Origin: Marinifilum sp.
GTDB taxonomy: Bacteria > UBA9089 > CG2-30-40-21
Length of the DNA stretch: 50,908 nucleotides
NCBI GenBank assembly: GCA_020717845.1
Contig: DYDG01000003.1
Location: 1-50,908, forward strand
Reading direction: 5' to 3'
Below the pieces are notes generated by a model. The model searched no databases, was not told where the DNA came from, and was given only the letters and a program-made list of their open reading frames with translations. The position numbers and the translations under genes are program-made. Of the stretch, positions 2-40,512 are shown in pieces (within the stretch, counting starts at the first letter, position 1; each line of letters opens with the position of its first letter).

Positions 2-202
2 TGGATTGTCTCTATTGATGAAGAGCTTGAGAAGACCAACAAACCCATTCCCCACAGCCGTTATGCTCAACTAATTGAAACACTCTTCGACAGGCTGTTA
101 CGGAATGCAAAATCAGCGACAACGGCATACCATATATGGTGGACAACAGTAAGCTTGACCCAACATATTGCGTACCTCTCGTGCCAAATTCTTATTCCGT
201 AA
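2..202 (+). pseudogene. 5' fragment of CHASE2 sensor gene, cut by an inserted element
   Basis: This reading frame enters from outside the window and begins WIVSIDEELEKTN, then RYAQLIETLF, which matches the start of a CHASE2 extracellular sensor domain. The frame runs into a 119-bp inverted-repeat element at position 91 and ends at a TAA (200-202) supplied by the right terminal repeat of that element. Element plus 4-bp duplication is 123 bp, so the frame is kept and only the stop codon breaks the gene. Removing them joins ETLF to ERYNSLQIGFDVFFGEDYK, a normal CHASE2 sequence that continues into the open frame at 311. The true gene start lies upstream of the window. The identification as the first part of the gene at 311-2467 is strong; whether any full-length product is made is unknown. 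Confidence 0.8.
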
Positions 203-209
203 CAGCCTG
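91..209. mobile_element. MITE-like 119-bp element, copy 1, with 4-bp target duplication
   Basis: The element has perfect 16-bp terminal inverted repeats, CAGGCTGTTACGGAAT at 91-106 and its reverse complement at 194-209. It is flanked by TCGA at 87-90 and 210-213, so the visible inverted repeat is 21 bp. It has no coding capacity. Deleting the element and one TCGA restores the CHASE2 reading frame. A second, diverged copy of the same length lies at 40364-40482 in the opposite orientation, sharing both ends and an internal TTGGGTCAAGCT block. This is the signature of a non-autonomous element moved by a DDE transposase encoded elsewhere; the transposase family cannot be told from the window. Confidence 0.85.
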
Positions 210-310
210 TCGAACGATATAATTCATTACAGATAGGCTTTGATGTATTTTTTGGGGAAGACTATAAGAATGATGACATCCTCAGTAAAGCTGTAACAAA
301 GGCAGGATGT

Positions 311-2467
311 GTGTATTTTGGAATACCCTTTGTTGATGGCAAGGGAGAAGAATATCCGGTAACAGGTTTCTCCTATCCATGTAACCCCAAGGGGACAACA
401 GACAAAATTATAGAGTTATCAGGCATGAAGAGTGCCCTTTCGGATTCAGTGCTTCAGAATGCCGCAGGTATTGGACATATCGCAAATGTTGAAACCAGAG
501 TTATCAATCGGATTCCTCTAATAGTCAGATATCAGGGCAAGCTCTACCCTTCATTAGTGCTTCAGATAGCTGGTGATTATTTTTGCAAGTCGCTGCATAT
601 TCCTAAGGAACAGTTAGAAATAGTAATAACCAAAGACTACATCAGCCTGAGAAAAAAGCGTACCAAAGATCTGCTCTGCCAGATCCCGGTTGATGAAAAA
701 TGCCAGATGCTGATAAATTTTGCCGAAACCACTAAGGATTCGTTTGCATTCAGAGTGAGGTCAATCAGGGATGTCCTGAACTTGCCTGCATCTAAAGAGC
801 TTAAAGGAAAGATTGTTCTGGCAGGAGGGGTTACAAATACAACTGGAGATATGTACACAGCACCCTTTGCCATTTATCCAGGGGTAGGCATACTGTCTAA
901 TGCCCTTGAGAATATCATTGATAATAGGTTTCTGCACCAGCCATTGAAGGGTGTCGGGTTCTTTTTGTTCCCCATCTTAACAGTTTTGATTGGCTGGGGA
1001 ATGTCAGGCAAGAGGTTGAAATGGCAAATTTGGGTGGCTATAGCAGGAGTTGTTGTATATTTGATCGGTGTCTGGTGCTGCTTTGAATATGGTGTCTGGC
1101 TTGAGTTGTTACGGCCGATAGTGGTATGGAGCGGGGTGATGGGGTGGATGATGATTGAAGGAAAAAGAGAACTGGAGAAAGAGGTGCAAAAGAAGGAAGA
1201 GGAGAAAAGATTGCTTGAGATAAAGATTAGAGAGAATGAGGAGGAAATTTCAAAACTCCATAGTGAAATTAACATATCGCAGAAGAATGGGGCGGCAGAA
1301 ACTCAACAATTGAACGCAAGAATTCAGGAGCTTGAGGATGAGGATAAAAGGTTGCGGAATAAGCCATTAAATGGACTCAGGATATCACTTAATGGAAACA
1401 AGGCTACAATATCCTTCAGGGAGGAGACAGTTTATATCTCAAAAGGCCAGGCACTGTTACTCAGACATGTTATACAGGAACAGAATAGAAAAAATACTGG
1501 GGTGCATTGGGTATGGGGCTGCTTTATCTTTACTGGTTGGGTAAATCATCTGCCTAAGGATCCAAAGAATACTTTTTCTCAGCAGATTGATGAGTTGAAT
1601 AAAACCTTTGGAAAGATGCTGAAAAAACTGGAAAAGGAAGGGAATATTAAGGAAAAAATCAAGATTATTGGTAGTTGCAAAGGTGATACCCATCCATTCC
1701 TGTTAGCACAAAGTAACTCTGAATATGAGTGTAATATCTCAAAAGCCTTTCAGTATGTAAGAGAAGCATCAGAGCTATTAGACAAGAATGATCTAAAGGG
1801 TGCGTTAGACACTGTCTATAATGCAATAAGTGAGGATACGGAGAATGTTGAGGCATATATGAAACTGCTGGATATCTATATGGAGTCAAAAAAGGCTGTA
1901 AAGGAGGAATCCATGCGGGATGCTGGGGAGAAATTGAACTCTGTTGTTAAAAAATACGATAAGTGTATAAAGACAATTATATTGTCTGAATATGGGAAAA
2001 TTGACTCTGTTAAGGACGAGCTAAAGACGATGAAAAATAGAAGAGGTGTTATAGCTGCTTATCTTTCAAGAATTGACTGGGGCAAAAAGGAAAAGTCGCA
2101 GGAACAAGACCCAGTATTTGTGGAAATACTTGGCTTAATGGAAAAAGTAAGAAATGAAGATCATAATGCCTTTGATCAGCTAAGGGAATATGAGTACATA
2201 AAAGAGATTCTAAAGACGGTAGAAAATATAATATCGAGGGAAAATCCAGAGATAGATAGGAATGAACCGAATGAACGGAATGAACTGAAGAATACTGTGT
2301 TAAGTCTGTTTTGGACTGTTCTTACGGGAACATGGGATAAAGATAGATGCACAGATATCAAATTACTCAAGTCCTATTTTATTGAGAGTGTGAAACGCCA
2401 AGTTTGTGAGATGTTGATAAATAGAGAGTATCAGCTGATTACGCAAGAGGAGATGGAGAGGTTATGA
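311..2467 (+). CDS. CHASE2 sensor protein with C-terminal winged-helix/TPR-like region (3' part of split gene)
   Basis: The frame is open from the element's stop at 202; the first usable start is GTG at 311, preceded by only a weak purine stretch. Residues about 1-205 are the rest of a CHASE2 domain (ligand-sensing, outside the cytoplasmic membrane), with KGKIVLAGGVTNTTGD and GVGILSNALENIID typical of its end. Three membrane segments follow at about 217-232, 238-258 and 266-282, then a charged coiled coil at about 284-352. Residues about 357-443 resemble an OmpR-like winged-helix domain, followed by helical TPR/BTAD-like sequence. There is no histidine kinase, cyclase or GGDEF output domain. 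The product from GTG would lack the N-terminal membrane helix and half of CHASE2, so it may be non-functional. Its stop overlaps the convergent HEPN gene by 6 bp. Confidence 0.7.
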   Translation: MYFGIPFVDGKGEEYPVTGFSYPCNPKGTTDKIIELSGMKSALSDSVLQNAAGIGHIANVETRVINRIPLIVRYQGKLYPSLVLQIAGDYFCKSLHIPKEQLEIVITKDYISLRKKRTKDLLCQIPVDEKCQMLINFAETTKDSFAFRVRSIRDVLNLPASKELKGKIVLAGGVTNTTGDMYTAPFAIYPGVGILSNALENIIDNRFLHQPLKGVGFFLFPILTVLIGWGMSGKRLKWQIWVAIAGVVVYLIGVWCCFEYGVWLELLRPIVVWSGVMGWMMIEGKRELEKEVQKKEEEKRLLEIKIRENEEEISKLHSEINISQKNGAAETQQLNARIQELEDEDKRLRNKPLNGLRISLNGNKATISFREETVYISKGQALLLRHVIQEQNRKNTGVHWVWGCFIFTGWVNHLPKDPKNTFSQQIDELNKTFGKMLKKLEKEGNIKEKIKIIGSCKGDTHPFLLAQSNSEYECNISKAFQYVREASELLDKNDLKGALDTVYNAISEDTENVEAYMKLLDIYMESKKAVKEESMRDAGEKLNSVVKKYDKCIKTIILSEYGKIDSVKDELKTMKNRRGVIAAYLSRIDWGKKEKSQEQDPVFVEILGLMEKVRNEDHNAFDQLREYEYIKEILKTVENIISRENPEIDRNEPNERNELKNTVLSLFWTVLTGTWDKDRCTDIKLLKSYFIESVKRQVCEMLINREYQLITQEEMERL

Positions 2468-40315: not shown

Positions 40316-40363
40316 AATTCTTAACTCTCCGTTAAATTGGTAAAGCGACAAGTTATTATTAGA

Positions 40364-40482
40364 CAGGCTGGAACAGCCTAAGAATCTGATATAAGAGACA
40401 CACAATGTATTGGGTCAAGCTCATTGCCATTTGCCATAATAGTATATCATTACTATTGATTTTTACATTCTGTAACAGCCTG
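40364..40482. mobile_element. MITE-like 119-bp element, copy 2 (diverged)
   Basis: Exactly the same length as copy 1 (91-209) and, in opposite orientation, alignable end to end at roughly two-thirds identity by eye. Ends are CAGGCTG and CAGCCTG, the right end has ATTCTGTAACAGCCTG, and the centre shares TTGGGTCAAGCT. The left terminal repeat is damaged and no target duplication is clear, so this is an older insertion. It lies between pilT and pilC and creates a false upstream extension of pilC. Confidence 0.8.
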
Positions 40483-40512
40483 TTGTGTTCGTTTAACGTA
40501 TTTATTATGAAA

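Follow-up and report, generated by a model that had tools for sequence, protein, structure and literature searches.

A very probable MITE related to IS1182-family insertion sequences interrupts a CHASE2 gene at a TCGA site

Introduction

MITEs of the IS1182 family with 4-bp repeats have already been published from Methanosarcina (PMC3852290), and the family described here adds a member to them. In Methanosarcina acetivorans, the MITEs of ISMac2, an IS1182-family element, are listed in Table 4 of that source with 14 and 7 copies, lengths of 160 and 169 bp and ends of 26 and 25 bp, and the 160-bp form is given there with 4-bp direct repeats. The element studied here is likewise short and multi-copy, with inverted ends attributed to an IS1182 element. 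It differs from the ISMac2 MITEs, whose host is archaeal, in length (119 versus 160/169 bp) and in its ends (16 versus 26/25 bp), and the two are likened by their description as tabulated (PMC3852290).

Two further members of the IS1182 family are close to the present case. ISPse1 of Paracoccus seriniphilus is described as 1653 bp long with 16/16-bp inverted repeats and 4-bp direct repeats (PMC3281130); by that description it resembles our IS1182 candidate partner in its transposase and our element in its 16-bp ends and 4-bp repeats. Unlike the MITE, ISPse1 is autonomous, is 1653 bp long and has another end sequence. IS1272 of Staphylococcus, also of the IS1182 family and like the element in its 16-bp ends, is reported to take the place of stem-loop targets and to make no target duplication (PMC5678879), whereas TCGA is duplicated in the present case.

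Here we describe a 119-bp element in a membrane-sensor gene of the CHASE2 type, its copies and relatives, and a candidate for the insertion sequence that would move it.

Results

The analysed stretch of DNA, hereafter the window, is 50,908 nucleotides long and makes up contig C158 of the draft genome G000, which totals 2.5 Mb. Direct reading shows a 119-bp element at 91-209 (given as the plus strand, the orientation being arbitrary) with 16-bp perfect inverted ends, CAGGCTGTTACGGAAT at 91-106 on the plus strand and its partner at 194-209 on the minus strand, and with an unstranded copy of TCGA on each side, at 87-90 and 210-213. This is the structure that an earlier sequence-only reading had claimed. 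The element is short and lacks a transposase gene. A second copy in the window, at 40362-40483 on the minus strand, is a strongly diverged relict, 71% identical and with decayed ends. We regard it as very probable that the 119 bp are a MITE, that is, a non-autonomous relative of an IS1182-family insertion sequence (IS), inserted at TCGA in a CHASE2 gene.

The 5' part of the interrupted gene (2-90, plus strand) is cut by the contig end, and its first 28 residues weakly resemble positions 36-64 of PF05226 (E 0.055), while the 3' part (214-2467, plus strand) matches positions 71-247 of the same profile with an E value of 3.2e-23. The frame from base 2 passes through SRYAQLIETLF and 37 insert codons to a TAA at 200-202 on the plus strand, which lies within the right end and is the sole stop of the insert in the CHASE2 frame. 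The element plus one TCGA amounts to 123 bp, or 41 codons; the insertion preserves the frame, brings in the TAA and truncates the CHASE2 protein, so that the gene has presumably lost its function. When the element and one TCGA were deleted on paper, a single open frame of 780 residues resulted (...ETLFERYNSLQIGFDVFF...), and the joined protein aligned through the junction with CHASE2 homologues, such as that of locus L171, without an insertion of such size. The homologues used in this alignment are only 25-32% identical, and the contig starts at base 1, leaving just 90 bp of the 5' part of the gene for comparison. The proposals that the element splits a CHASE2 gene, that the split can be reversed on paper and that the TAA alone breaks the frame of a 123-bp insertion are all confirmed by these results. 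A close CHASE2 orthologue was not seen in the 19 genomes of the phylum that were searched, the best local identity being 35-36%; the empty site of the CHASE2 locus itself is therefore shown solely by the continuity of the protein.

When G000 was searched with the element plus flanks, 58 matches came up, among them pieces and reverse self-matches of copies. From 30 loci we read 27 distinct copies at full length, 26 with 119 bp and a single one with 117 bp, leaving aside copies cut by contig ends and a 106-bp form, as expected from the prediction that the element is multi-copy in its genome. Divergence among the 27 copies is about 1% in the end columns and 8% in the interior. The flanks of the copies are unrelated, which is not what a 119-bp conserved part of a normal gene would give. 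The copy in the window has 4 differences from the majority sequence of the 27 (range 1-24), and the downstream part of the broken CHASE2 gene is still stop-free over about 750 codons. Together with the perfect ends and duplication, these observations lend moderate support to the suggestion that the insertion is recent.

Some copies share a target. At loci L008, L009, L086 and L087 of G000 several copies sit at one TCGA or TCGT within a common flank, AAAACCTTGAACATCGA, a pattern in which one target within a gene family has been hit repeatedly; we take the L009 flank to resemble the beginning of a Y1 transposase gene of the IS200 type. At positions 322-462 of locus L055, two head-to-tail copies have one TCGA in common, as if one MITE had targeted the duplication of the other.

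The TCGA on both sides can be read in two ways, because the motif is palindromic and could equally belong to an inverted repeat. If so, the element would be a self-contained palindromic repeat, REP-like or an RNA hairpin, with TCGA as the tip of a 20-bp inverted repeat. Indeed, the arms extend to 21 nt each (86-106 and 194-214) with 100% complementarity, each consisting of 16 nt of the element, the TCGA and one chance base, and the element strand folds much more strongly than 200 shuffled sequences (z -7.2 and -8.0), none of which equalled it. However, 15 of the 23 pairs in the predicted fold are the ends themselves, and covariation analysis did not support an internal RNA fold beyond them (covariation term 0.02). 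An Rfam search returned a single match, sub-threshold and outside the element. What settles the matter is the copies with variant flanks. Among 80 distinct copies, 62 have identical 4-mers on both sides, against 42.2 expected as the mean after shuffling the right-hand 4-mers, a count reached by 0 of 20,000 shuffles. Identical direct pairs other than TCGA occur in 11 of the 80 (CCGA/CCGA 4, ACGA/ACGA 3, TCGG/TCGG 3 and TCGT/TCGT 1), against 0.86 expected, again with 0 of 20,000 shuffles as high, whereas only 1 non-TCGA pair is inverted-complementary. The 18 copies with unequal flanks are as decay or recombination would give, and no clear pairing of the flanks past the 4 bp, as in a wider palindromic target, was seen. 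Empty sites point the same way, the 4-mer being present once. For a copy in genome G002 (L063), the sequence made by joining its two flanks agrees at 159 of 160 bases with another stretch of that genome, which has a single TCGA; for a G000 copy (L019) it agrees with L023 of G000 at 73 of 76 bases, and for L118 with L051 at 87 of 99. Empty sites were found for other copies, and among the 19 genomes of the phylum none for the CHASE2 locus. TCGA is a true 4-bp target duplication, constant in length as the claimed insertion signature implies, and an origin as a palindromic repeat is scarcely credible.

The 119-bp MITE could also be thought of as an in-frame mobile peptide cassette, whose open frame RQAVTE...SVTACR would let insertions be tolerated. 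Rickettsia palindromic elements are in-frame mobile peptide cassettes of this kind. This frame is open in 75 of the 79 119-bp copies, at least one frame is open in 76 of 80 copies against a mean of 33 after interior shuffling (a shuffle that ignores common descent), and both 119+4 and 131+4 are divisible by 3. Against a coding role, the three codon positions vary alike (0.194/0.216/0.206, permutation p 0.90), synonymous changes are not in excess (0.257 versus 0.15-0.36 in the other five frames), stops caused by private mutations occur at the chance rate (2 seen versus 1.86 expected), and the window insertion is read in another frame and breaks the gene. We attribute the open frame to inheritance, few of its codons being a single change away from a stop, and consider a peptide cassette very unlikely. 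An assembly chimera, in which a collapsed repeat was fused to unrelated flanks near the contig start, might be suspected of a repeated element that lies only 90 bp from that start; since both flanks form one continuous CHASE2 frame aligned to homologues, with an identical TCGA on each side, we give this hardly any weight.

Relatives of the MITE were found in 5 of 19 genomes of the phylum, namely G000-G003 and G010, the last from another family; G002 and G003 (Modern_marine.mb.176 and Candidatus Desantisbacteria CG2_30_40_21) are genus mates of G000. In a wider set, 6 of 41 genomes gave matches, of which one, 39 bp long, is of doubtful significance. An exact scan of a species-genome collection for two exact 15-base ends, 105-135 bp end to end, yielded 38 stretches, located in two Desantisbacteria bins, one Omnitrophota bin and Desulfobacteria, the last including Desulfocicer vacuolatum, Desulfamplus magnetovallimortis, a Desulfobacter postgatei bin and others. 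Interiors differ between hosts, with an identity of about 50% between the Desulfocicer copy and those of Desantisbacteria. In genome G002, a family of 131 bp with 12 distinct copies (L046, L047, L065, L068, L070, L075 and others) has the same ends and TCGA duplications and an interior, GTCATTTCGAGG...GAATGACA, unrelated to that of the 119-bp form. Neither the element nor a contig-end stub of G000 matched plasmid records; in viral contigs, the exact 18-mer of the end and a relative of the transposase fragment were both absent; and the 15-base end sequence did not occur in the papers searched.

Several observations on these relatives stand by themselves. The Omnitrophota copy (L062) is 88% identical to the best G003 copy and the G010 copy (L035) 88% identical to the best G002 copy, which may reflect transfer between phyla or families, or else misbinned contigs. 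The 131-bp family gives the impression that the ends took over a different palindromic repeat. In Desulfamplus magnetovallimortis (L093-L099), a repeat of about 88 bp, with CAGGCTGTTACGGAG between GATGAAAGTC and GACTTTCAT arms, occurs in many places and is preceded by AAAA, not TCGA.

The likely partner of the MITE is an IS1182-family IS that measures about 1.85 kb, has the same ends and is likewise flanked by duplicated TCGA. Ends of this type (CAGGCTGTTACGAAA) are followed in G003 by the start or pieces of an IS1182-type transposase, interrupted where the contigs stop (L127, L189), and one such piece of 109 residues, P0001, is matched by the IS1182 profile at 1.2e-25. Transposase relatives at E 1e-8 were found in 9 of 389 genomes of the class of Desulfamplus. 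Three of the nine loci, from three Desulfobacteria-class genomes, hold complete elements with the same ends and TCGA on both sides: L212 (916-2768, 1853 bp), L213 (915-2767, 1853 bp) and L214 (491-2362, 1872 bp). The 511-residue L212 protein scores 401.9 bits to the IS1182 profile NF033551 (cut-off 270) and contains PF05598 (DUF772) and PF13751 (DDE_Tnp_1_6), a pair of domains typical of the IS1182 family; L213 scores 302 bits against the same cut-off, its frame being broken before the profile end. The other loci comprise L211, which is cut by the contig, shows TCGG at its visible end and scores 261.2 bits to NF033551, a fragment (L215, in genome G044), and four more distant loci without the shared ends (L216-L219).

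The genome that carries L214 (G387) also holds two identical 99-bp MITEs with TCGA duplications, whose ends are common to the L214 IS, with 20 of 21 bases identical for one end of that IS and 15 of 16 for the other. The IS ends read GGAAC on one side and GGAAT on the other; several MITEs differ likewise, and in the G000 MITE both read GGAAT. Past about 20 bp, the MITE interior could not be traced to the IS found. A search between paired ends for long intact elements, covering Desulfamplus, the Desulfobacter bin and the G002 and G003 loci, returned only MITEs, nested copies, fragments and host genes between two elements. The IS1182 profile had no match in G000 and none over the cut-off among 11 MITE-bearing genomes. 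Six further end sequences of G000 hit contig ends, with an interior unlike the MITE (C10, C106, C111, C119, C115, C17); such stubs fit, but do not prove, a longer repeat lost or collapsed in assembly. A transposase gene flanked by CAGGCTGTTAC ends, which the sequence-only reading had suggested looking for, thus exists with TCGA on both sides, but in other genomes and not complete in G000.

IS1380 elements have TCGA as their target. Tried as a partner, IS1380 gave six places over the cut-off in Desulfobacteria (five in G041 and one in G042), none of which is bounded by a pair of these ends, and it was rejected.

Discussion

We propose that an IS1182 transposase of the DDE type would bind in trans to the CAGGCTGTTACGGAA ends, excise or copy the element, and attach it to TCGA, or to a site close to TCGA in sequence, across a stagger of 4 bp. 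Gap filling after the stagger would then leave the direct TCGA repeats, the target in this case being a TCGA within the CHASE2 gene. Both the movement of the window copy by such a transposase and the chemistry of the 4-bp stagger are inferred from the ends, the duplication and the related elements.

A broader scheme is that one IS1182 clan drives MITEs across phyla, the first 15 bases staying constant across Desantisbacteria, Omnitrophota and Desulfobacteria and the interiors being exchanged (forms of 99, 109, 119 and 131 bp), and that in Desantisbacteria the stop-free 41-codon frame allows translation to continue through some insertions, each adding a peptide segment. We hold this combined proposal to be improbable.

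The very probable MITE insertion explains the broken CHASE2 gene and names a likely mechanism, an IS1182 transposase acting at TCGA. It is of use for annotation, as regards spurious short ORFs and split genes, more than it is surprising. MITEs of at least three phyla use one and the same end sequence, and through this common end sequence tiny repeats of uncultured bacteria are tied to their likely mobiliser.
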